DNA from: Daucus carota subsp. sativus | Taxonomy: Eukaryota; Streptophyta; Magnoliopsida; Apiales; Apiaceae | NCBI RefSeq assembly: GCF_001625215.2 | Contig: NC_030387.2 | Coordinates: 33,627,606-33,691,605 of the forward strand | DNA length: 64,000 nucleotides | Reading direction: 5' to 3' | Part shown: positions 12,541 through 51,719 of the stretch, piece after piece | Layout of the letters: every line of letters starts with the position of its first letter | Position numbering within the stretch: the stretch's first letter is position 1 | Notes under the pieces: model-generated | What the model saw: the letters and a program-made list of their open reading frames with translations, nothing else | What the model was told of the DNA's origin: nothing | The model's database searches: none | Program-made: the position numbers and the translations under genes

Positions 12541-14490
12541 TCCGCTCCTGTATATCCTCTCTTGTTATCTTCCTGTTATTGCAGTTATCAGTGTTACTGT
12601 GCAATTGATGTATGATATTATATTAGTAAAATATGTTACCCGTTTAGGTGGAAGGCGGAACTTTTTGTTTCCACTTTGTACAGAAATTTGACAAAGTTGG
12701 CATTTGTGTACTGAGATAATTTGAAATAAGTGAGTTATAACTACTTGAAACTAATACTATGTTTTACTCTGGCTCGCTATTTTATTTATCTCGTGTTTTC
12801 TTAAAATGCATTTTGAAAGTAGAAGAGTTTGCAAATGTGATAAAATATTCTGCGCTGTGCTAGTTAGTTTGGAACTTTGGATATATAGTTATTGCTCATC
12901 AAAATACATCAGACTAATTATTTTGTCTAGTGAATGGTGATGACATATATGTGTAGCAGTAAATCTTGTAGCAAACTACTTACGAGCTCATGTTCTGGCC
13001 TAGAAAAGCAGTGGGAGTTGATGAAGCTTGGTCGACGGTGTTGCATCTAAAATTAGTCTGCAAGTCTTGATTTATAGGAGCTTCAAAGGAGGAATTGTGT
13101 GTAAGGGATGATTCTTTTTTAAAAGAAAACCGTCCCAGAAAATGGGTAGTCCTTAACAAGTTTTCAGGAGCACGTATAATAATGATTCCAGAGGCTGGCA
13201 GAAGTGTTCTTATGCTCTGGGGATCTTAGAAGTCATCTTCTCCGCACTGGACCAGGTCGATTAAACAAGCTGATTTTGTTTTTGGCACAAAAATATTTTG
13301 TAATGCATTCTTGTGTATATCTTCTTCTTTTGGCTCTGGATTAGCTTTCTGGTCGCATTTTCCTGTCTGGATTACAACGTAACTGATGCTTCTTCTCTGC
13401 CTATAAGTTGTATACTGTATATGGTTTTACTATTTAATTTTTATTTTTTGGGGGACAACCAAGACAAGATATTAAGTGGGTGTTTGACTGTGTGGCTTCT
13501 GGGCTTCAAAGCTTGAGAAGCCCACTTCAGCTTTTATACGGTCCGTTTGGCAAGAAAAAGAAGCTCTTAATTAAGCGGAAATAAGCCCAGCAAAAGAAGC
13601 TTTGAAACCTAGCTTATTTTTCAAGCCCCGACTTCTGCTTCTTTCGTTCTGATTATTGTGGGGGCTTTTTGCTATTTTGACTTCCCAGTATTTACCAGAC
13701 TTGTTCAACATCAAACATCTAATTATTTGATTTGCTTAGCTGACTTTTTCATGGCAAAAATAAATCTCATCCCCATTATAATCATGTGTTTTCTGATATA
13801 TGAAAATTAGAGTTTCTTGTACATTGTTGTGTTGTTAGTGTATATTGATGGCATCAGTATTCCTTTGATTGTTTTAGACAAGTATTAGATGCCTCTTCAC
13901 TGCAAGGACCTAATTGCTTGCTAAAATTACTGGTCTCTGCAGTAGCTAGTTGGTCTGAGACTCCGGACTTTAGTAATCAACAATCAGATACAAATTTTAT
14001 TATTTATTACAGTACATTTTTTTATCATATTCTTATAGCTGATTCTCAGTAATCGCTAGTTAATTATAATTAATTTTTTAAAAGAAACAGATTATTTATA
14101 TTATAAAATTACCAAACTAATATCAACTTATAAGTTAAGTTATCCAAACACTTAAACTTCTGGGAGCTTATGAGTCATGGTATCCAAACACTTCTGGTAG
14201 CTTATAAGTTCAAACCAACTTATAATTTCTAAACCACTTCTTTATTTTAAGCAATAAGTCACTTCTTTTAAGCCCAGCCAAACGAGCCCTAAGTCTAACT
14301 TCTCAACTTCTCACTCATAAGTCTTATATTAAATTTTGTCTTACTTTAATCATTCTAATAAGTACAAGGATTAAATTGGCTGTGTCGTTTTTGGATATCA
14401 TAAATTTGAAATAATGATGAGAATTATAAACGATGTGATGTGGGTGTACACGAAGTGTTTAGCATTTTCATTGAATATGCAAAATGCTAA
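12541..14490. other. APT 3' flank and intergenic DNA with a possible transposon relic
   Basis: No gene recognised. Between about 13541 and 14292 the ends (GTCCGTTTGGCAAGAAAAAG and, inverted, GCTCGTTTGGCTGGGCTTAA) suggest a decayed terminal-inverted-repeat element. Its right half repeats TATCCAAACACTT and AGCTTATAAGTT-type motifs. The final 26 bases (14465-14490) match 17829-17854 and form the left flank of the Helitron. Confidence 0.4.
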
Positions 14491-14928
14491 TCTTTATATT
14501 TATATAAAGGAGGGTCTTCATAGGCTGACGTGGCGGCTTCCAGAGCTCTGCTTCTATTTTTCCTCGATTTCTAGAATTTCACTATCTTTTTTATCAGTGC
14601 TCTGAAATTATGAATCTTTATATTTATATAAAGGAGGGTCTTCATAGGCTGACGTGGCGGCTTCCAGAGCTCTGCTTCTATCTTTATATTTATATAAAGG
14701 AGGGTCTTCATAGGCTGACGTGGCGGCTTCCAGAGCTCTGCTTCTATTTTTCCTCGATTTCTAGAATTTCACTATCTTTTTTATCAGTGCTCTGAAATTA
14801 TGAATCTTTATATTTATATAAAGGAGGGTCTTCATAGGCTGACGTGGCGGCTTCCAGAGCTCTGCTTCTATTTTTCCTCGATTTCTAGAATTTCACTATC
14901 TTTTTTATCAGTGCTCTGAAATTATGAA
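14491..14928 (+). repeat. Four tandem copies of the Helitron 5' terminus
   Basis: Copies start at 14491, 14615, 14681 and 14805. Three are about 124 bp and the second is cut to 66 bp. Each starts TCTTTATATTTATATAAAGG and contains TTCATAGGCTGACGTGGCGG. Short open frames across the array come from the repeat and are not genes. Confidence 0.92.
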
Positions 14929-15050
14929 ATTAAATTCTCCGTTGAAATTGAAAGGTCCACAACTTAATTACTAAGCTTTATTACTTCGGTTGGGAATTCA
15001 TAAAATCGGAAGTCTAAAGTTTTAAGCTCCAGTTCACTCCAAAACTAACA

Positions 15051-17445
15051 ATGGCAGTGGCACCCGGACCTTCTTGGGATTTGAAGAATTCTGACCCTAA
15101 AGCTGCGATTTCGCTATTTTCTACTCTTACAAAAATTACACTAATCAAGAAAATCCCAACGGTGCTCTTACCGATTTTATTTTTGGAAGTTCTGATCGCG
15201 CAAGCAAGTCATGGGGCACCAATGGCTACGGCTAATCGGTGTCGACTAGCGGCAGTGTTGGCTCTCCTACAACCGGGAGTGAGGCGATTGGCAACACTCC
15301 CCCAGTGATAAGACTTCTATTAGGCTTAATCATATAGATGCTCATGCTGATAATGTTGCATCTCAAGCTACTGACATGTGAGTGCTTAATTTGTTGTATT
15401 TTTGAGTGTTTTGCTTTTGCAATTGAGACCGGATTATACGGTGATTTGATTTTTTTTATTAGGATTTGGAGCAATTTTGTCATCATTGGATGGTAATTGT
15501 TGAATTTGGAAAAGTGGGTGATTTTTCTTTTGGGTTTTTGGACTAATTGCTAGCGTCTGATCATAAATTTTGCTAATTGTATGCATAAAGCTTTTTGCTA
15601 TATTCTGAGCTGTGTTGTGAGGAGACAGTGCAGGGGACTCCGCCAATCGAGCATGAAAGGTTTGTGCCTTTGTCATTCTATGTTGCGATAGTAATTTTCT
15701 ACATATGTTGTTTGATATATAGTTGATATTTAACCAAGAGTGCCTGTACTGATCAATGGGTGTATTATTTTGTATTGTCGATAGTTTATGAGAAAGTGCA
15801 AAGCAAGGGAAGAACTACTTATAACGAGGTCAGTTCATTTTACAGATTGCTTCCTTCTTTTACAATTATGTTCCATACTTAACTTGTGCCTAATACATGA
15901 CTGAATCCTATCAACTGGTCTATGTTACAACAATGTTATATTTTGGCCTCTAAAGTTCAAGCTGCCTATCGGAAAAATTGTTAGTCTCTACTCAAAAATG
16001 AAATTTGATTATATTGTCATGTGATTATGGTTCTTTAGCTACAATGGTTGGTTGTTTGGCGTCAAACTTATTCTTTTTTCCTGATTGTGTTGGTCAATTT
16101 AGTTTATTATTTTTAGGATTTTGATTATTTTTTGTGTTTGCTTTATAATATGATTTGGGGGTGTGTGAATATTAGCTTTCTTGAACGCGATGTCTGAGGG
16201 TTTTGTTCAATATGATCAAATTGATTGAATTGCTTTGTGATAGGTTGAATTTTTAGCAGATGGGAGATTAGGAATTTGATGAAGTTTTTGTTAACTTTCG
16301 CGTGTTGACTTGATTGTTAGGAGCTTGCACGTTCAAGACTTGCAAGTTCAGACCTATTGTGTCCCTGGCCATCTCTAGGCTCTCTGTGGTCAGGAATCAG
16401 CGAATTTGGTTTGTTGGATTTAGTCTTATTATTTTCTTAATTAAATTTTGAATAGAAAATAAAATTATAATCTATAAAAATCAGTTTCAAGGATTGTAAA
16501 AGGAATAGGATTCTTTTTCAAAAATTAGTCTCATAATCAATATAGAATTGTTGGAATTAGTCTTATAATTCTTAATTAAATTATAATTTAAAAATCAGAT
16601 TCAAGGATTGTGAAAGGAATAGGATTTTTTTTTTCAAAAGTTAGTCTTACAATCAATATTTTCTTAAATTTCAAATACATAATATCATCATGCAGTGTTA
16701 TTTATTTTAATCTTTTGATTTTGGCTATGAATTAATTGTATAAAGTATACTATAGCATATATTCATAAACAGGTCCCCGTGGCCAAATAAGTTGGTTCAT
16801 ATTTCTGTATGTTTTTTTAGGTGTGCATACATATAGTTCTCGGATCTAGAAGGAAAGGTAGATGGCCATGCTAATAGTGACTGAGGAATTCAAAAGGGTC
16901 CTACTCCTATGAGTCACTTGCCTGCTCAAAATCAGAGAGCCCAGAATGGTTTCCTATTGGTTCCACCTGTAGACAATTCACAACAGCATTCTGCATCAGG
17001 CCCTGTTGAAAGAAACAAGATGTAAAGAACTTCTTCGATGCAGTGAGTGGCTTGCTTGGAGCATCTTCAGAAGCGGATCCGTGGAGGTGTAAGCTCATCT
17101 GAGGCCCTGGCCAGTGGTAAATAGTATACGGTAGCCAAGAGACCTTGAAATGTGAGGATTAGCCAGAGGTGCTGGTGTGCTTCTATTTCAGCAACCTTTG
17201 CTGGTTCATAGTAATGGAAATCCTCATCTCATCATAAGTTAATGCTCGGTGGTCCTGTGGATACAAACCCATTTCCCCAATTTAGACTATGTGGAGTTGC
17301 TGATAAGAACACCATCTTCCTCAGATTAATGATTTCAGCTCTTTCTTTGGTATTTCACTCTCTGTGTGTTACAACAAGCTTTTACCCGGTCCTTTTAATC
17401 TGCTTAGTTGGGCAGGCATGCATTTACATAATTTTACTTTGCTAA
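15051..17445 (+). pseudogene. Broken gene fragments inside the Helitron
   Basis: I do not recognise the parent gene. An open frame starts at 15051 (MAVAPGPSWDLKNSDP...) in a good start context. The coding-like signal then moves to another frame, reading CDFAIFYSYKNYTNQENPNG from about 15105 onward, and meets a stop near 15235. It resumes as SVSTSGSVGSPTTGSEAIG up to a GTGAGT donor-like site near 15376. A further piece around 16890-17090 reads [19 protein letters not shown] and, after a shift, FFDAVSGLLGASSEADPW. Stops and frame changes between exon-like pieces indicate a captured and decayed gene. Splicing into a chimeric transcript cannot be excluded. Confidence 0.55.
16425..16670 (+). repeat. 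Two-copy direct repeat, period about 114 bp
   Basis: The segment containing CAAGGATTGTAAAAGGAATA occurs at about 16489 and, slightly diverged, at about 16603, with matching flanking AT-rich sequence. It lies inside the Helitron. Confidence 0.7.
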
Positions 17446-17638
17446 AACGTTTTATATTTTTAAATTTTCTCACTCGCGCGAAGCGCGTTTTTTCCACTTC
17501 ACATAATAAAAGGATTTTCTTATATTTCAACTAACAATTACAGAATAAAAGGATTCGAAAACTATTGATCATAATTTTTTTTAAATGTCTTACATTCCAA
17601 CTTTTTATCACTCGCGCGGAGCGCGTTTTTTTCACTAG

Positions 17639-18704
17639 TTAAACCAATATTTATAAGTAATATTTGAGTCCATTGTATTTAAAATTTAAGAAAAACATTA
17701 TATCGTTTAGCATTAAGTCTATTTTATTTTTTAAAAATCAAACAAAACGTGATATCATGTAATGTTTTTTACTTTGAACACGACATGACTACTTAAACTA
17801 ATATTTATAGGTGTGTTTGAGGTCATTGTTTTCATTGAGTAGACAAAACACTGTTTAAATTAATATTTATAAATGATACTTGAGGTTATTATTTTCGATT
17901 GTGATGTTCAGGAAATTTCAATTTTAATGATCTTGATGTTAAGATATCGTTAAAGGAGATTCTTTTATGTCCGTTTTTCTTAATATTTTGTAAGAGCCCG
18001 TTTATATATTTCTAGAGTTACATGAGTTTTAGGATTTTATGATAATAAAATGTTCATATGTTGGTGGTTTTAATCCCGAATTTGACAACAAATCATCTCG
18101 ACTTAATGAATTCTATACCGAATCATGATCGCTTCACTTGATTTACCATTTATTATCCAATAGAGCTTTATTATGTATATGACAAGTCCGTGTGATGTCA
18201 CGGTGTCCGGATATTGAAATGAAGGATGGTGACCATTTAAATGAAACCTAACTTAATTATTTATAACATATATTATAAATGTAAATATATAAAAATTTGT
18301 TTATCAATTTATAATCGAGTATAATACATTAAAGTTATCAGATCAATCAAATCAAAGTAATGAGAATTATTAAATTGAAGTTGGGATCTCTTCAACAACC
18401 TATCAAAATAAATTATTAATTTAAATACATATAAAAATTATTGATTATCAATATATACTCATACATAAGTACATTACACAATATACCATTATAAATTATT
18501 AATAAAATTATTAATTATTTATTACCCATCTATCACCGACCCACTCATATAATTTATAAATACTTAGCTCGAGGGCACTCGAGTATTGAAAAAACAAAAA
18601 AGTGAAAAACAGGATAAATGCATAAAACTGGAAAACATAAAACGTGCTAAAATGGAGAAAAATAAAACAAAATGGCACACAATACAAATAGATAAACGCA
18701 GGTG
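17639..18704. repeat. AT-rich repeat copies and DnaJ upstream region
   Basis: A unit containing TTAAAYYAATATTTATA followed by TTTGAG/CTTGAG occurs from 17639, about 17793 and about 17855. The first copy was split by the Helitron. From 18000 to 18700 I see only AT-rich sequence and no gene. Confidence 0.6.
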
Positions 18705-18884: not shown

Positions 18885-21800
18885 ATGGCTGCAGCATTGG
18901 CTTCGACGCCCACGTCATTCTCCCCCATCCCTAGCTTCGTCTCCGAACGTTCTAGATGCTTGCTCCTCTCCAGTTCCTCGTTTTTTGCTGGCGGTGCTCA
19001 AATTTGGGGACAGAATTGCTTCATTTCGGTTTCGACTTCGTTTAATTGTACTGAATTTAATAGGAGTAGGATTTGTGTTAAGCGAGTCAGGACTGTTGTT
19101 TCGGCTTCAGCTGATTATTATTCGACTCTCGGTGTTTCTAAGTCTGCGGATAATAAGGAAATTAAAGCCGCGTATCGGAAGTTGGCTCGGCAGGTAGTCC
19201 TTGCCTCCCTCGGTATAATGCCTAATGATGTTGTTATATCGAAATTAGTTTTGTTTTGCATTGTAATTTAATAATCAATTCACTGTTGTATTGATCTTAA
19301 TTTTAGTTTAGTTTCCACTAGTCTGTTTAGGTATTGGAAAATGCGGAAATGCTATCGGTTAGATGTTAGATTGCTTTATGTTTCTTTGTGGTGCTTGTGC
19401 TTGAAACGTGAGGTGGAGGAGTGGCATTTTGATGTTTGTTTTTAAGAGATAATGGGGTTGCGCTCACTTAGATAGAATGGAATGAAATGGAAAATTATAA
19501 AGAAGTTTAATGGCGGAAGAAGAAAGAGGGAGACAATAGTGACTAAATATGAGTGAGTCCAAATTTCTTATGATGAATATTGCAGGGACACATGATGAAG
19601 AAGTGGAATGAGCATTTCTTCCTAGACATGTGAGTTAGATTTCTAGTTCAAATAGTTGGAATGGAATGATTGAAGAAATGAAAATTATAGACATTGTCTC
19701 TAATTAACCGCAACTGAGAGTACAAGTTTCATTCCATTATCATTGCATTCCATTCCATTCCATCCAAGTGAACACATCTTGAGGATTTAGGAAGGATCAC
19801 TTGTAACTGATAGACATTGGCGGGAAAAGGAAAACAAGTGATTATACTGAAAGCAAATGTGTTTTTAGTAACTTGTGATGTGACGTGCAGTTGTACATGA
19901 ATGTTATGCTACAACTTCCCGTGGATAGTGAATACTGATACCTCCTTATATGTTGTGGAATGGAAGAAATAAGGGTCACTGTACAGTTCTTAGTTTTATT
20001 ATAGCAAGTTAGGGATTTGGTTGGCTTTTTAGTTTTTATATATTGATAAATTTAGTAGTTCTTAGAGCAAGTCCAATAGGTTACCTATATAATGTGCTAA
20101 ACTCACATTTAGGTAATGTGTCAAAAAAATGCGCTCCAACACTATTCTAGTGGTTACCTAAATCACTAGCACAACCTCAAATCTCTTAGCCATTACCTAT
20201 TTATAAGTAACCCCTAGCCATTAACTATTTAATATTTATGAATAAAATAATCATCTCTCTCCTTCTTTCTTTGTCTTTTCCCTCTTTTTCCCATTCTCTC
20301 TCTTAAATTTATTATTAAAATAATCTTAAGAGAACAAATATAGGGATTGCTATTGGAGTTGACACTAAAATTAAATTACCTAAATCACTAAGACTCACTA
20401 GGATTCATTATTTTATATTATTAATAAGTAATGAGATAGGTAACCTATTGGACTTGCTCTTAGTTGTTACGTTCTTTTAACGATACAGTCATATATATAA
20501 ATTTGTAGCTTCCATAATGTATATTTTTCTTCTCATATATGCTGCCACGATGCTATATGGAGGCGACGCCATGTGAAAAACATGTTTGATATGATGGATT
20601 TTGTATTGAAGTAATCTCAATTCCATTATGGGTGATTCTATGATCATTTTACCTGCTTAAAATTTGGTAATATTTTGAATTAGTAGAGTTAAGTAGAAAT
20701 TTTACTTTCTAGATGAGACCGAGCTGAGGTAAATCTTCTATATCTGTGATACTGATTCTCTTTTCTGGCACATGCTGATTTGCTACGTGTTCAGTTCCTT
20801 TTGACTTCTTTTGTGTTGCTTAAAAGCGGTTTGATTCACCTTTTATGTCTGGAAATGGTATGCGGTAGAAGCCTGTATAGCTAACCATGCAAAACTTAAT
20901 GCTGTAACTTTTCTTAAAACTTCTGATATATCCTTATGCGTGTTGCGTTATAGTATCATCCCGACGTCAACAAGCAACCCGGAGCTACGGAAAAGTTTAA
21001 AGAGATTAGTGCTGCCTATGAGGTATGTATAAAGCTACTAATTTACTCATGCTTGATATTATATGTCTGATTTTGTTATCGAAGACTCATAGGTTGTGAA
21101 ACAGGAAAAACCATTATAATGGATCCCTTGCTGAAACACAATGCTTTTATATTCTACATTCACATATCCTTCTCTGCATATGAAAAAATGCTAAAAATTA
21201 ATTCTTATTTAACATGGACAAACGTAACCATTTCTATGGTTATGGCCAATTTTAGCCTTTCAGATACGCATTTGCCAAATGAGATACCCATTTTGTATGA
21301 GATACTCCATCCATAAATGTGCATCTCAATTTTATTATAAAAAATTGCTACCCATTGCCAAATGCGTATCCCATCAGCTGGAAATGTCTAAAAAATTGAA
21401 AATGCTTATCTTCGTCAATTTTGTTTCACAAAAAGGCTAAAGTCGTTCTCACCTTATATGTATGTCCTGACCCTAAAGAGCTTCATGCAGAGTTTAGTTT
21501 CCAACTTTTATATTGTTATTAGCTTTGAAAGCAGTTACCCGGTATTCTTGTTGACCTAGCGATGTATTGTTGCTAAAATCCTGAACACGAGACTTAGCAT
21601 AACAGCTCGCAAATTTCATACCATAATATCTCTATCTGTTTTACCGTAAGCGTCACAGCATTAAGATTGTAAATGCCCCACGAGCATATGAAAAACTGAA
21701 ACGAGATCCAAAAATAAAACCCCCCATTAAAAGCTCAGGAAAATGAATAAAATTCCGAGAAACCTACGTTTGTGATTCAGTCTAATAGAAGCTACATACA

Positions 21801-39118: not shown

Positions 39119-40140
39119 TGTAACAACCGAAATGTTCGGTTTCGGATCTAAATCCTGTTGGCTGTTCTCTACTGTTAAAACCGAAAAGTTCGGGTCGGTT
39201 TCATTTCATGGAAATAAGAATCGAGAGGCTCGGTTCGGTTTCAGAAAAACAAGAACCGAAAGACGATGGTGTTTACAGCGGTTTTAGAAAAACAAGAACC
39301 GAAAGACGATGACGAACTACATCTGCCGGTTTGGACTGACAAACCGGAGCGAAATTTTGATGACTAAAATCAAGCCAGAACCGACTGACTACTTCAGCTG
39401 CTGGAGTTTGGAAACTCAAACAGACCCGAAAGCGAACCGGAATCAGCTTCTCCTGAACTTTGCAAACACGAACCGACCCGAAACCGAACCGAATATTTCA
39501 GCTCCTGAAGCTTGAAAACTCAAACCGACCCGAAACCGAACCGAACATTTCAGCTTCTGAAGTTTGGATACTCAAACCGACCCGGAACCGACCCGAAAAT
39601 TTCAGCTTTTGATCTCAAACCGACCCGCAACCGAACCGGAATCAGCTTCTCCTGAACTTTGCAAACACGAACCGACCCGAAACCGAACCGAACATTTCAG
39701 CTTCTGAAGTTTGGATACTCAACCGACCCGGAACCGACCCGAAAATTTCAGCTTTTGATCTCAAACCGACCCGCAACCGAACCGGAATCAGCTTCTCCTG
39801 AACTTTGCAAACACGAACCGACCCGAAACCGAACCAAATATCAGCTTCTGCAGTTTGGATACTCAAACCGACCCGGAACCGACCCGAAAATTTCAGCTTT
39901 TGAACTCAAACCGGCCAGGAACCGACCCGAAAATTTCAGCTTTTGAACTCAAACCGACCCGGAACCGACCCGAAAATTTCAGCTGCTAGACCCGGAAGAC
40001 TCAAACCGACCCGGAACCGAATAACCCTAAGCCAAACCGTCAGAAAGCGGCAATGCACAACATTCAGAAACCGAAAAAGGCGACGTATCGGTTGGTTTGG
40101 CTGCTCAAACCGAACCCGAAACCGGATGAAATGGACTTGA
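39119..40140. repeat. CCGAACCGACCCG minisatellite cluster
   Basis: About 1 kb is built from a unit of roughly 50-55 bases containing CTCAAACCGACCCGAAACCG and TTTCAGCTTCTGAAG. Higher-order repetition is visible because GGAATCAGCTTCTCCTGAAC recurs near 39439, 39638 and 39784. The opening 39119-39300 has related AACCGAAA/TTCGGTTTCGG motifs in both orientations. All frames open through it are repeat artefacts. It may be the expanded subterminal region of a transposon whose ends I cannot define. Confidence 0.8.
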
Positions 40141-44269: not shown

Positions 44270-45545
44270 CACATAACACAGACACACAACACAAGAGATC
44301 GTATGTCGACAGCCGCATAGTCCAAGCCCTCCAAAGCTACAAAAGCCTCGTGGTTTCAGGTATGTCCTTAAAGCCCACCATCTTCATCGTCTTAAACCCC
44401 TTAAACCCCCTGCTAATACATGTTTAATCTTTAATCTAATCTTAATCCCCCTTTGTTTTAATATTTGATCATCGTTTTTTCTTATACATGTAAGCTCTTT
44501 TTTCGATCTCTCTCAATCCTGTTATGCGCTGATTCAAACAATTAATGATATTAATATAGATATAAGTGTGTAAACTAATCGATTCTGTTGTGTATATAAT
44601 TGGCCGAGTTAACAGAATTTTTTATTGCTTGATTATTCTTGTTTGTTGTTATACCATATCTGCATTGTTATATTTTTGTGAAAATCAGGGATTAAATTTA
44701 TGATTGGGATTATGGTATACTGGGTACGTGGTTTTTTTATATATAATGAAAATAATGTAGACTTTAATAGCAGCTTTGAAATGAATTTACGTGGGTATAC
44801 AGTATACTCCCAGTACTAGCAGATGGGTGAGGTCTGATGAGCATATCTCACTCTTCATGCACCCTACTTTCGAGTTACGAGTGCGATATACGAGGCATGT
44901 TTGGAGTATTGAAATGATTGTTGAGACAAAAGACAATCAACTTCAGAAAGTTAATTTTATGTGGTTATGCCTTTTAGACTTTAGGCTCTGTGCATGAAAA
45001 TGAGCATGTTTAATCAGAGGGAATTACATTCCGATTTTAATCAAAAATGCAATATCTGAACGAAGAACGAGTTGTAAGTGTTTGCAAATCTGCGGACTAT
45101 TTGTTTTATTAATTTGCTCCTCAGTGTTTTGTTTTGTTCTTTCTTATATCACCAGTGACGGTGAATCCATAATTGTTGCATATTGTACATGAGAAATTGG
45201 CTGCGTGCATTACTTTATATAACATTTAATTTCGCGCCATGGTACTGGAATATGAATTTAGCGCTATTCTTGATACAAGTAATTTAATTAATGCGGTATT
45301 TGGTCGTTAATTCTTTAAAATGTTCATTTTCCGTTTAATATAATTTACTTGTAATCAATCATCAATGATGTTGGGCTGCAATTGTGTGTATTGTATGTTG
45401 AGAAGTACTTTACACCAAAACTATATTGCACTCCTGTGCTGAGAGGGAAAATTTGTGATTTATTTGATGTGCATATACATATATATGTTAAATGCTCTAT
45501 TAACTGATATACTGTATTTTGATAATCAGAATCTTTTAGCTAAAG

Positions 45546-47489
45546 ATGGAAACGGCTAATGAGAATAATGAACAGCCCAACAGTATCAAGAGAAAGAAGT
45601 CTATAGTCTGGGACTACTTCACAGTCCAGGAAATCAGTACTGACTGTAAGAAGGCTTTCTGCAATCAATGCAAAAAGTCATTTGCTTACGTTACTGACTC
45701 GAAGCTTGCAGGAACAAGCCATCTAAAGAGGCACATTAAGGATGGGATCTGCCCAGTTGAACGACAGAAAAATCAGGGGATGACTCAGGTTAATTCGTCT
45801 ACCCCTTTAAAGACTGATGGTGAGAAACGTACAACCTTACCCAGAAAAAGGGACACAAGTATGCCTGTATCAGCACCAGTCCATGAGATTGCCAGAATGA
45901 TAATGCTTCATGAATATCCACTAGATATGGTGGAGCATACTGGATTCAATGAATTTTTACAAGCTATGCAGCCTCAGGTCAATATGTTGAATACTGATTC
46001 TATCCAAGAGGAGTGTCTCAGTATTTACGCCAGTGAGAAGCAACGCATATCAGACCTTCTTAATGGGAGTTTGGGACGTGTTAACCTTACTTTGGATCTG
46101 TGGGCATCACAACGAAGCCTGGGATATGTACTTTTGACTGGCTACTTCATTGATAGCGATTGGAAATTGCAAAGGCGGATTCTTAATGTTGTCATGCTAC
46201 CGTTTCCTGATTCAGAATCTGCCTTCAACCATGCCGTTGTAGCTTGCATAAATGATTGGGATTTGGATGATAAGCTATTTTCGCTAACCTGTGACCAATC
46301 TTTTGCAGCTGAAGCTGTGAGAAGGAATCTCAGAGGTCTCCTCTCAATTAAAAACCCTCTTGTTCTCGGGGGTCAGCTGTTACTTGGGAACTGTTATGCT
46401 CGGGTCATAAGTCATCTTGCTCTGGATGCTTTAAGTTCAATGGTGAAAACCATAAAGAAAGTCCGCAATAGTGTTAAGTACGTGAAAACGGCAAAAGGTT
46501 GTGAAGCAAAGTTTATAGAATTGAAGCAAAAGCTTCAAAACCCTAGCACCAAGAGCCTTATCATTGATGACCGAACAAAATGGGACACTACATATCATAT
46601 GCTGGTGGCTGTTTCCGAATTGAAAGAAGTATTCTCTTGTTTGGATACATCAGATCTAGACTACAAACAAACGCTGTCGACAGAAGAGTGGGAACAGTTA
46701 GAAATTCTCTGCAGTTACTTGAAGCTTTTCTTTAATGCTTCTAATATTTTAACTTCTCCTGCCTGTCCGACTTCTGATATATTCTTCCATGAGGTGTGGA
46801 AAATTCATCTAGAATTGACTCATGCAGCAGTGAGTGTGGATACTTTCGTTAGCAATCTGGCCAAACCTTTGCAAGAGAGATTCAGTGAATATTGGAATGG
46901 TTGCAATCTAATTCTTGCAGTTGCTGTGACTTTGGACCCGAGGTCAAAACTGGAGCTGGTGAAATACTCTTTCTCTAAAATTTATGGCAAGGATGCTGGA
47001 ACTTGGGTCAAGACTGTAATTGAAGGTATTCACGAACTGTTTCTTGAATATATTGCGCTATCGCTTCCTGCACCAACCTTTGTGGTTGAAGACTGTAACA
47101 ATATTGAAAGTGAGATGACCCAGGAAGATGCTCTTGTTCCTGCTGGTGAGGATGGTATGTCTGATTTCGATGTCTATATATCTGAGATAATGAGTAGCCA
47201 ACACATGAAATCAGAGTTAGACTTGTATCTGGAAGAGCCTCTTCTGCCAAGAACAGAAGAAGGTTTTGATATCTTGGCTTGGTGGAGAGAAAACATGCAG
47301 AAGTACCCTACTCTCTCTAAAATGGCAGCTGATATCTTGTCCATTCCAGTGTACACAGTTGCTCCAGAATCAGTTTTCGACACTGAAACTAAGAAGATGA
47401 ATAGCTATCAAAGCTCTCAAAGACCATCGATGGTTCAGGCTCTTATCTGTGCAAAAGATTGGCTGAAGTACGGGCCATTAAAGGTTTAA
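45546..47489 (+). CDS. Domesticated hAT transposase (BED zinc finger protein)
   Basis: A 647-aa protein in one coding exon, of the DAYSLEEPER/RICESLEEPER type: a nuclear DNA-binding protein derived from an hAT transposase. The BED zinc finger lies at about 20-70 (W22, F25, C39, C42, H59, H63). The transposase core follows, with LTLDLWAS (D184) and SLTCDQS (D250), then LDPRSKLELVKYSF at about 464. The C-terminal dimerisation domain (about 556-642) contains SELDLYLEEPLLPR and DILAWWRENMQKYPTLSKMA. The usual RCxAHxLNL motif is altered to NCYARVISHLALD, and the VASESxFS motif to VAPESVFDTETK. No terminal inverted repeats or 8-bp duplication flank the gene. With its 5'-UTR intron and TATA box, this points to a host gene. 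I recall an hAT gene at the matching place in Arabidopsis (At1g80020). Confidence 0.88.
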   Translation: METANENNEQPNSIKRKKSIVWDYFTVQEISTDCKKAFCNQCKKSFAYVTDSKLAGTSHLKRHIKDGICPVERQKNQGMTQVNSSTPLKTDGEKRTTLPRKRDTSMPVSAPVHEIARMIMLHEYPLDMVEHTGFNEFLQAMQPQVNMLNTDSIQEECLSIYASEKQRISDLLNGSLGRVNLTLDLWASQRSLGYVLLTGYFIDSDWKLQRRILNVVMLPFPDSESAFNHAVVACINDWDLDDKLFSLTCDQSFAAEAVRRNLRGLLSIKNPLVLGGQLLLGNCYARVISHLALDALSSMVKTIKKVRNSVKYVKTAKGCEAKFIELKQKLQNPSTKSLIIDDRTKWDTTYHMLVAVSELKEVFSCLDTSDLDYKQTLSTEEWEQLEILCSYLKLFFNASNILTSPACPTSDIFFHEVWKIHLELTHAAVSVDTFVSNLAKPLQERFSEYWNGCNLILAVAVTLDPRSKLELVKYSFSKIYGKDAGTWVKTVIEGIHELFLEYIALSLPAPTFVVEDCNNIESEMTQEDALVPAGEDGMSDFDVYISEIMSSQHMKSELDLYLEEPLLPRTEEGFDILAWWRENMQKYPTLSKMAADILSIPVYTVAPESVFDTETKKMNSYQSSQRPSMVQALICAKDWLKYGPLKV

Positions 47490-49011: not shown

Positions 49012-51015
49012 TTATAGCATTAGTGCTTCTAAATCATGAACTCTATGAACTGAATCTTCAATTGCCTGCAAAGCAGCCTTGCAGTGTTCCTTTGAAATCA
49101 CCCCCTCCTCCACAACTTGCAATGCACTTCTATAAAGGTGAGCAACCTTTTGAATCTGGTTGGCAGCATCATTGTAATTGGACAACTGATCTGGAAGAAA
49201 TGTACGCTTGTAATCTTTCCTCCATCTTGATAGAATGTATGTCCAAGGGATCTCCTCCACCCCGTTAAAGTTAAGCACTGACAATGCATGGCGACATAAA
49301 TAACCATAGAAGTTAAAACAGCTACATATGCAGCGAACTTCTGATGCTGCTCTATTGTACAGAACTTCATAATCCCTAATCTCTCTCCTATTTCCTTCAG
49401 CCAAGACACGCTCCTTCACCAAGAATATTATAATTGCCCCGTCAACATGCACTTGGGTAGTACTGAAGCAAGAATACATTTCCTCGACTTCTAACTGAAA
49501 CTTCTTAAAGATTTCACTAGTATACACTTTCGATAGCTGAACTTCAAAAGAACATCTTGTTTTCAGTGTAGGAATTGACTCTCTCGATTCCTGATCTGCT
49601 TGTACTTCCTCCTTGTGCTTCTTGTGTAAAGCTAATTCGTACTTGTCCAGAAACTCTTTCAAAGGAGTTTGTTTATGGACATATTTATCAAAAAATGCAT
49701 TGTGGGTCTCACCGGGTCGTGCAGCAGCCATTCCAGCAAAATAAGTTTCTTTTAGGTAAGCAGGAACCCACCGCATTCGATCGTCATACAAGGACCGAAT
49801 CCACTCATGATCACCAACACCAAAATGCTGAATCATAAATGCCCACGAAGCTTCAAAATCAAAAGGTTTCAAGGCCTCATAAACTGCTTTAGTTAATGCC
49901 TTTCTAATAGCATCATAGTTGCGGAGTCCTCCCAACTTTTCTGGAACTTTTTTCATGATGTGCGACAAACCAAAACGATGTAGAGCATTTGGAAATACCT
50001 CCGCAACTGCACTCTGCAAAATCTTGCATCTCTCAGTTATTATGGTCTGGGGAGATTGTCCAGATGTGCAGGTAAGCCATGCATTAAATAGCCAAACATA
50101 AGACTCTATGGTCTCACCAGCAAGCAGGCCACAACCCAGTAATACTGATTGACCATGCTGATTCATTCCAACAAATGCCACGAGCGGGATTTCATATTTA
50201 TTTGCCAAATATGTATTGTCAAAAAAAACTGCATCATTAAAATAATTAACTGCAGCCTTACACCTAGCATCTAACCAGAACACGTTTCTCAGACGCCCAC
50301 CACTATTAAGATCCGTCACATAAAAAAAGTTTGGGTTAGTCAACTGCATACGACAAAAATAATTGTAAATGGCTTGAGTGTCACCTTTCCTCAAGTTCAA
50401 GTGATCAGGATGATCAGAACAACTTCTATCTTCTCTAGCATCAGACTTGGAGTTGCTAGTGCCTCCTGCATCTATAACAAGTGCTCTATACAACTTTATT
50501 GTCTGTGTTTCTGTATCAGAATTTGTATGCAGCTTCCTCTTGCTTCCAGGGTTCATCTTCTTCGGTGACTTGTAGGCCTTTGTACCTAACGAGTGGTTAT
50601 GGTCGAGAGTTACTTCAATTATCCTCCACCTCTTAGAATCCACTAGTTTCATCCTTAGCATTGCAGGACAACCGGTTCTTGTTTCCCTTCTTAAACGGTT
50701 GACATCTTTAATTCTTTTGAAACCCTGACTGCTGCAGCATAAAACTGCACCATACTTCTCTCTACTATTTCTTTTAAACCATGAATTTTTAACTCTTACA
50801 CTAAACCCCGCCTCCTTCGCGTAACAATTATAATAGTTGTAAGCATCATCATATGACTCAAATTCCATGCCTGCAGCAGGTGGGACAAACGCCTTCCTTT
50901 TTTCATTGTCAACATTTTGAGCATCTATAGGAACTTCCTCACCATTTTCCTCTTCCATAGCTTCACTGGCCTGACCCAAAGCCGCTTGATCTCCATCAAG
51001 CGGAAATTCCTCCAT
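49012..51015 (-). CDS. FRS6: FAR1-RELATED SEQUENCE protein (FRS6/FRS8 group)
   Basis: A 667-aa transcription-factor-like protein derived from a Mutator-like (MULE) transposase, related to FHY3/FAR1 of phytochrome A signalling. The FAR1 zinc-binding DNA-binding domain spans about 50-145 (GMEFESYDDAYNYYNCYAKE, CC at 93-94, C116, H139, H141). The MULE transposase domain is at about 255-350 with FFDNTYLANKYEIPLVAFVG. The SWIM zinc finger CICSCFNFYGYLCRH (C562, C564, C574, H576) and a C-terminal tail with VVEEGVISKEHCKAAL follow. The first catalytic Asp is kept (D266), but the position near TIITERC has Glu where FAR1-type proteins have Asp. The coding region is one exon; a 5'-UTR intron ends exactly at the ATG. 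Placement in the FRS6/FRS8 pair is from memory and from the neighbours. Confidence 0.9.
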   Translation of the reverse strand: MEEFPLDGDQAALGQASEAMEEENGEEVPIDAQNVDNEKRKAFVPPAAGMEFESYDDAYNYYNCYAKEAGFSVRVKNSWFKRNSREKYGAVLCCSSQGFKRIKDVNRLRRETRTGCPAMLRMKLVDSKRWRIIEVTLDHNHSLGTKAYKSPKKMNPGSKRKLHTNSDTETQTIKLYRALVIDAGGTSNSKSDAREDRSCSDHPDHLNLRKGDTQAIYNYFCRMQLTNPNFFYVTDLNSGGRLRNVFWLDARCKAAVNYFNDAVFFDNTYLANKYEIPLVAFVGMNQHGQSVLLGCGLLAGETIESYVWLFNAWLTCTSGQSPQTIITERCKILQSAVAEVFPNALHRFGLSHIMKKVPEKLGGLRNYDAIRKALTKAVYEALKPFDFEASWAFMIQHFGVGDHEWIRSLYDDRMRWVPAYLKETYFAGMAAARPGETHNAFFDKYVHKQTPLKEFLDKYELALHKKHKEEVQADQESRESIPTLKTRCSFEVQLSKVYTSEIFKKFQLEVEEMYSCFSTTQVHVDGAIIIFLVKERVLAEGNRREIRDYEVLYNRAASEVRCICSCFNFYGYLCRHALSVLNFNGVEEIPWTYILSRWRKDYKRTFLPDQLSNYNDAANQIQKVAHLYRSALQVVEEGVISKEHCKAALQAIEDSVHRVHDLEALML

Positions 51016-51719
51016 CTGACATGACCAAATTTATAAGAATTACACGATGATCTATGAGTAAGAAGACCTACAAAGACACAATATTTCAAACACCACGGAT
51101 ACTGTCATAAAGCAAGAAACAACTACGACAGAGGTCCACCAAACACCTTTGTAAGTCACAGAAAGGATTTCGAAGAATACTTAACAACAATTTCATATAA
51201 TTCTATCATAGCAATGCCGGTACTCCTCATGTGATCCAATTCGATTTAGTTTAAATAACAAATTCCCCTAAGTTTTCCCACTTACATAAAATAAACACAG
51301 GAAAATTCCACAAACAAAAAAATCTAACCAAACAAATCGCAAGTTCATGTCCCTCATATAGTCATATGACTGATATACAACCAAAAATTGTCCCGCAGCC
51401 ATGTACAAAATGTTGTTGAATTTTCAATTACATAACTAAAGAGCAACTTAAGCAAAGAACCAAATGATGCAATAATATAAATACATCAGCTAAGAAAGAG
51501 CTATAAAAATTAAATCTTGATAGAAACCCACGAATTAAAAACAGAACCCAAGTCGTAAACATAATCAAAAACAAATATTTATGATGGTTTTGATACATCC
51601 TCAACTCTGAGCTGGGTTAATAAGAATTAAGGGAAAATGCAGTGTATGGGGTGAAATGAAATGAGAATAGAGTGAAGTAAAAGCTACAAGAAAGAGATGA
51701 ATTAATAGGAATTACTTAC
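51016..51719 (-). other. Intron in the FRS 5' UTR
   Basis: On the minus strand a GTAAGT donor at 51719 follows a non-coding exon of about 100 bases. The acceptor CATGTCAG at 51023-51016 touches the start codon, so the coding exon begins with the A of ATG. The intron is inferred from splice signals only. Confidence 0.65.

Follow-up and report, generated by a model that had tools for sequence, protein, structure and literature searches.

A carrot Helitron with four tandem 5′ ends and a single-ended sister copy: possible rejoining of the 5′ end in cis

Introduction

Maize Helitrons often carry multiple termini, which have so far been explained by nesting of one copy within another. Among maize helA elements, 28.7% carry multiple termini and 17.6% carry multiple 5′ termini, and 99 of 100 sampled internal pseudo 3′ termini were without an intact CTAG (PMC3288121). 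In Fusarium oxysporum, the duplicated 5′ part of FoHeli elements is typically shorter than 200 bp (PMC5148889). For Helraiser, a Helitron reconstructed from bats, it is reported that cleavage falls precisely before the TC and that the TC is joined to an A, that AT is the preferred target while TT, AC and AA are used too, and that the 5′ end is needed for transposition, which still proceeds at about 24% without the 3′ end (PMC4778049). Multiple 5′ termini of Helitrons are thus already published from maize and Fusarium, and the kind itself is ordinary. How, then, can a Helitron gain additional copies of its 5′ end?

Here we describe a carrot locus where the unusual feature is a clear pair of nearly identical copies, of which one has a single 5′ end and the other has four. 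Such a pair, together with junctions at TC at several loci, allows the origin of the arrays to be tested, and this in a crop of which many accessions have been resequenced. Should the arrays have formed in cis, failed transpositions could be read from them, and they would point to a transposase that was active until recently. In the sections of the literature that were covered, we recognised no proposal of formation in cis for multiple 5′ termini. The window means in the following the whole stretch of 64,000 nucleotides that was analysed (C7:33627606-33691605 of Daucus carota subsp. sativus), and the searches covered one genome of 441 Mb in 11 contigs.

The element and its termini

Positions 14491-17638 of the window are a non-autonomous Helitron of 3148 bp on the plus strand. 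Its 5′ TC at 14491 adjoins the host A at 14490 and its terminal CTAG (17635-17638) adjoins the host T at 17639, that is, the element is inserted between A and T. A GC-rich hairpin, CGCGC-GGA-GCGCG (17613-17625; stem of 5 bp, loop of 3, z-score -2.4), is separated from the CTAG by 9 nt and lies 13 bp from the end, within the 10-15 bp at which such a hairpin is looked for in canonical Helitrons. No exact target duplication was found at the element ends when lengths of 1-15 bp were tested, and the two ends match as inverted repeats at only 5 of 30 bases, in agreement with the lack of terminal inverted repeats in Helitrons. A strict scan of the window for a perfect GC-rich stem followed by CTAG returned this place alone on the plus strand and none on the minus strand; the same scan gave 1 match in 10 simulated strands. 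A looser scan, which accepted CTRR and one stem mismatch, returned two further places on the plus strand and three on the minus strand, so that the hairpin by itself is not decisive.

At the 5′ side, the terminus is repeated in tandem with starts at 14491, 14615, 14681 and 14805 and with zero mismatches among the copies. The outermost copy (14491-14614) has 124 bp, the second (14615-14680) consists of the first 66 bp only and ends in CTTCTA, the third (14681-14804) has again 124 bp, and the fourth (14805-14928), also of 124 bp, runs into the interior (14929-17472) as the single 5′ end of the sister copy does. A 20-bp terminus pattern, allowing up to 3 mismatches, matches the window four times, at these four ends, against 0.05 matches expected. 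Toward the 3′ side, a pseudo 3′ end (17475-17500) has the hairpin CGCGC-GAA-GCGCG (17475-17487) followed 9 nt further by CTTC instead of CTAG, and it is present in the sister copy as well. The element thus combines more than one 5′ end with one functional 3′ end, as Helitrons with multiple 5′ termini do. A first-pass annotation made from the letters alone had described the TC start, the hairpin nine bases before CTAG, the insertion between A and T with no target duplication, the four 5′ copies including the one of 66 bp, and the second, decayed hairpin at 17475; all of these were recovered to the base.

The interior does not look like that of an autonomous Helitron. The longest stop-to-stop frame has 126 aa, and no Pfam family, and hence no RepHel gene, was seen in 10 of the 51 frames and in two stitched translations, for which reasons the element is classed as non-autonomous. 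From about 15051 onward the interior resembles a gene, and a plausible 5′ splice site lies at 15378; when one stitched translation of the two was compared with solved structures, three weak matches (E 0.44-0.89) were returned. Two exact terminus patterns had no match in viral contigs, and neither Rfam families at gathering thresholds nor tRNAs were found in the window.

A DnaJ-domain gene starts (ATG near 18885) about 1.25 kb downstream of the element's end. The window also contains an open frame of 649 aa at 45540-47489 with BED, hAT RNase-H and hAT dimerisation domains, which by its domains is probably an intact or domesticated hAT transposase, and a frame of 672 aa on the minus strand (49012-51030) with FAR1, MULE and SWIM domains, of the FAR1-related type. 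A tandem array with periods of 43 to 199 bp, in which AACCGACCCG is abundant, occupies 39407-39984. A Helitron has been described to disrupt the Y2 candidate DCAR_730022 on carrot chromosome 7 in DH1 and in 97% of orange accessions; the figure legend gives that insertion as 17-kb, a size which tells that it is not the element described here (PMC10581907).

A paralogous empty site next to the element

When the left flank (14465-14490) and the right flank (17639-17674) are joined, they align without any indel to a neighbouring repeat (17829-17890), which acts as a paralogous empty site: 19 of 26 bases match on the left (to 17829-17854) and 28 of 36 on the right (to 17855-17890), both counts being reproduced here. 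The best plus-strand match of the left 26-mer in the window is at 17829, just where the right flank predicts it, and other registers within ±15 give at most 11 of 26. At 30 bases, the left flank is not unique in the window, being tied at 20 of 30 elsewhere and reaching 21 of 30 on the opposite strand; therefore, the strength of this empty site lies in the agreement of both sides. When both borders are slid together from -8 to +1, the score stays at 57-59 and is best, 59, at -6 rather than at 0. As sliding changes the score by no more than 2, the alignment fixes the length of the element, but the borders only to about 8 bp and not to the exact base. The exact base is set by the TC and CTAG termini and by the sister copy, which has equal borders in unrelated DNA. 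The claim of a built-in empty-site control made by the first-pass annotation thus holds for the two-sided match free of indels, not for base-level borders, while the identity as a Helitron and both borders are borne out by the termini and, independently, by the sister.

No empty site was found elsewhere in the genome. The 400 bases of the right flank gave 3 genome matches including itself, with all candidates scored. The 400 bases of the left flank gave at least 40 including itself, from the best 40 of 1561 candidates; the other 39 listed span only 14091-14309 of the window, and over the remainder of the flank this search could have overlooked a weak match. The sequence at 14091-14309, left of the element, is a high-copy repeat with at least 39 other copies at 86-92% and is probably a MITE.

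A near-identical sister with a single 5′ end

The sister copy lies 7.4 Mb away at C7:26260093-26263160 (locus L009, 5594-8661). It is bordered in the same way, by A|TC and CTAG|T, and the 300-base flanks of the window copy have no match on either side in the 9.9-kb locus of the sister; thus, equal borders are found at two unrelated sites. Over 2829 aligned sites the two copies differ by 17 substitutions; in addition, there are four small gaps and an insert of about 235 bp. This insert (about 7912-8148 of L009), which starts with CTCCCTCCGTCCCATTTTAA and ends in a near inverse of it, resembles a mariner-type MITE. Plant DNA changes at a rate of 7e-9 substitutions per site per year, with which the split of the two copies would date to about 0.4 million years ago.

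The sister has only one 5′ end, identical to that of the window element over 124 bp, and it has both 3′ hairpins. A more distant relative, about 94% identical in the interior, likewise carries a single 5′ end on the element's strand. Since both relatives are single-ended, one end looks ancestral, although extra 5′ ends may instead have been lost in the sister. The two 3′ ends of the window element are alike at 77 of 112 bases, whereas the 5′ copies are identical. The simplest reading of these comparisons is that the second 3′ hairpin predates the split from the sister and that the 5′ array postdates it. In the first-pass annotation, the second 3′ hairpin had been counted as part of the array; because the sister has both hairpins beside one 5′ end, a single event for the two was rejected, and the second hairpin arose before the 5′ array and apart from it.

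The assembly also holds other copies: beside the sister with its equal borders, at least 46 places that match the 5′ end and at least 43 that match the 3′ end were listed. Full 124-bp units at 100% occur, among the 46 matches listed, in the window (three) and in the sister (one) only, with 40 of 82 candidates scored in this search. Exact 24-bp termini occur only in the window (four), in the sister (one) and at a further locus, L012 (four). The four-end array was thus found at one locus and its sister is single-ended, in a lower-bound search of one genome.

How the array can be assembled

If the first 124 bases of a single-ended element are duplicated, and then the first 190 (124 + 66) of the product, exactly the observed 3148 bp are obtained, as was calculated by a script. 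Each of these two prefix steps starts at the outermost TC. The junctions of the array read GAA|TC and CTA|TC, and either can be slid by 2 bases; the events may also have followed another order, but any order requires both junctions. It was considered whether local hairpins set premature 3′ ends, but the hairpin energies just upstream of the prefix ends at 66 and 124 rank merely 30 and 20 of 149 positions, and this idea was rejected.

Could the four copies be a mis-assembly of one? The array is just 438 bp long, PacBio and Nanopore reads stand behind carrot DH1 v3, if that is the assembly used here (PMC10581907), and further arrays with units of 76 to 886 bp exist in the family, which together make an artefact of assembly extremely improbable.

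Junctions of 5′ arrays across the family

The terminus pattern, again with up to 3 mismatches, matches 90 places genome-wide against 11 for a reversed control. Grouped at 1 kb, the 5′ ends of the family form 75 loci, 7 of which hold two or more ends on the same strand; grouping at 2 kb gives 8 of 73 and grouping at 5 kb gives 10 of 71, whereas about 0.011 neighbours within 2 kb would arise by chance per genome. It is to be noted that the pattern begins with TC, so that duplications restarting inside the terminus can be missed, as at L063.

Altogether 18 junctions were noted, with repeats of one junction within an array counted once, and 8 of them, at 6 loci, are resolved on both sides; the other ten are unresolved or contrary. 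The eight are those of 190 and 124 bp in the window, 76 and 886 bp at L012, 872 bp at L013, 855 bp at L056, 144 bp at L076 and 175 bp on C2, the last two loci being judged by eye. L012 (C6:20777500-20785500, minus strand) is a Helitron of the window element's family in which a 76-bp prefix, with 1 mismatch, is followed by three copies of an 886-bp unit that are free of mismatches; its 3′ end reads CTAG|T. L013, whose terminus was detected by similarity and not by the pattern, has two identical copies of an 872-bp unit and a single-ended relative of its own at 97%. The 855-bp unit of L056 is present twice with 8 mismatches, and L076 has a prefix duplication of 144 bp. The C2 array (C2:39843143-39845451, minus strand) has six 5′ ends on the same strand, spaced 645, 175, 645, 175 and 645 bp; an 820-bp compound unit containing the 175 bp is repeated there, by the same logic as 124 + 66 in the window.

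All 8 resolved junctions restart exactly at TC and all 8 prefixes end in A (p 3e-5 under base composition). Such regularity is hard to reconcile with ordinary tandem duplication by slippage or microhomology-mediated repair in which a transposase takes no part: for the two window junctions alone, the rough chance of restarting at the terminus is (3/124) squared, 6e-4, and upstream host DNA is included in 0 of 8 junctions, though the terminus search would also catch duplications of that kind. Because they are anchored at the terminus, the duplications point to a transposase rather than to random slippage. Ordinary duplication would explain that the units are exactly tandem, that the junctions share microhomology of 1-3 bases (partly judged by eye), and that the duplicated 5′ region of L063 restarts at base 20 and not at TC, which, once included, leaves 8 of 9 restarts at TC. 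On balance, we consider it improbable.

The base following the terminal A of the prefix is T in 5 of 8 junctions, A in 2 and G in 1, and T given A is not significant (p 0.11). A^T was therefore weakened as a proof of joining by the transposase, since the A may itself be microhomology with the host A. The same prefix ends, at A in all and at A^T in 5 of 8, meet the target rule equally well if a copy was nested into another copy.

Among the ten junctions outside the count, that of 177 bp at L056 has 13 nt of extra bases. A second end at A|TC with the prefix end not identified is seen in the 645-bp spacing on C2, in 387 bp at C3:48.86 Mb, in 3055 bp at C4:28.22 Mb, where the junction sequence alone was inspected, and at L012, where a 36-bp 5′ fragment lies 1168 bp further inside. 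The second TC is absent from the 834-bp junction at C7:11.59 Mb, the second end is altered in that of 1757 bp at C3:12.46 Mb, and L075 is too diverged; the 4132-bp junction at C8:2.14 Mb and L063 complete the ten.

Some further observations were made on the family. Long unit lengths cluster (886 at L012, 872 at L013, 855 at L056 and 834 bp at C7:11586143-11586977), which may be coincidence; the ends of the units at L012, L013 and L056 lie in differing sequence. Within 0.5 Mb of C9 (C9:28547750-29019136), eleven 5′-end-like matches at 77-78%, most with identical scores, occur on both strands, perhaps as part of a larger repeat containing a Helitron 5′ end, and weak 5′-like pairs are seen within these C9 loci. 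Opposed pairs of family 5′ ends, C8:2076980 (+) with C8:2079311 (-) and C8:2695407 (+) with C8:2697125 (-), suggest that one copy was inserted into another in reverse.

A possible mechanism and its rival

How could prefixes be added at the terminus of a resident element? We favour, with a probability of roughly 0.6, that the array was formed once the element and its sister had separated, on arrival at this place or later, by a transposase that rejoined the nicked 5′ end to its own copied prefix. A member of the family, which has dozens of 5′ and 3′ ends in the genome, would have inserted here between A and T. The RepHel transposase, supplied in trans, might then nick the element at A|TC, and the 3′ end of the host strand might be extended over the first n bases of the element. 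If the transfer was left incomplete, the enzyme could attach the displaced TC end to an A of the new copy, often the A of A^T, and each abortive round would leave a tandem prefix starting exactly at TC. In this way, the outermost 5′ end would have been duplicated twice as a prefix, first of 124 bp and then of 190 bp, and the other arrays of the family might be explained by the same rejoining. The first-pass annotation had proposed repeated rolling-circle initiation; the restart of all eight resolved junctions at TC agrees with this, and the duplication at L063 does not. Also counted against formation in cis are the microhomology of 1-3 bases, which could explain the shared A, and the extra bases at L056.

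The main rival is nested self-insertion. Insertions into another copy, first at 124 and then at 190 bp inside it, would have been followed by transposition to this place of the whole stretch bounded by the outer TC and the inner CTAG. Nesting is the published explanation for multiple termini in Fusarium (PMC5148889) and maize (PMC3288121), and Fusarium copies with several 5′ ends are described at different places, apparently moved by transposition (PMC5148889). However, two nestings and re-transpositions would have to fit within the time of the 17 substitutions that separate the sisters. Nesting also predicts intermediates, and no two-ended copy of the element is among the matches listed from this genome. 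It predicts further a remainder of the recipient at the site of nesting, while none follows the CTAG here and the right flank aligns straight to the empty site. Nesting therefore appears to us unlikely at this locus, and rejoining in cis is what we infer in place of nesting and re-transposition. It is to be noted that intermediates of array formation of any kind were not seen in these lower-bound searches of one genome.

More tentatively, and with odds somewhat against it, multiple 5′ termini of plant Helitrons in general might be footprints of abortive rolling-circle re-initiation in cis, sealed onto the TC at an A. If so, the arrays would record visits of the transposase to a fixed insertion, and nesting would be unnecessary.

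Comparison with known systems

The termini of the carrot element are those of well-described Helitrons. The Xuan-Feng Helitrons of wheat likewise have TC and CTAG ends, a hairpin near the 3′ end and an AT target, and they include a non-autonomous partner, as the element here is; the hairpin length quoted there is 16-20 nt, longer than the 13 nt of the carrot hairpin, and they are active, with multiple 5′ ends not among the features described in the sections consulted (PMC13286980). Helraiser likewise joins TC to A and CTAG to T at an AT target, but it is an active experimental element, and 5′ prefix arrays are not among the features described in the consulted parts of its reports (PMC4778049, PMC5876387).

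Tandem arrangement itself has its parallels. CentHel of rice consists likewise of truncated Helitron sequence in tandem, although with hundreds of elements, unlike here, the likeness being one of general description (PMC10095026, PMC5148889). In FoHeli of Fusarium oxysporum, the first 31, 65, 73 or 85 nt are duplicated; it is a non-canonical fungal family, however, and its multi-end copies lie at different places, while the four-end array of carrot was found at one (PMC5148889). Maize helA shares both multiple 5′ termini and pseudo 3′ ends without CTAG, the latter represented here at 17497-17500, and the explanation given there is nesting, worked out for 3′ ends (PMC3288121). Unlike in the maize account, the 3′ duplication of the carrot element is probably older than its 5′ array, and it can be compared with a sister that has one 5′ end.
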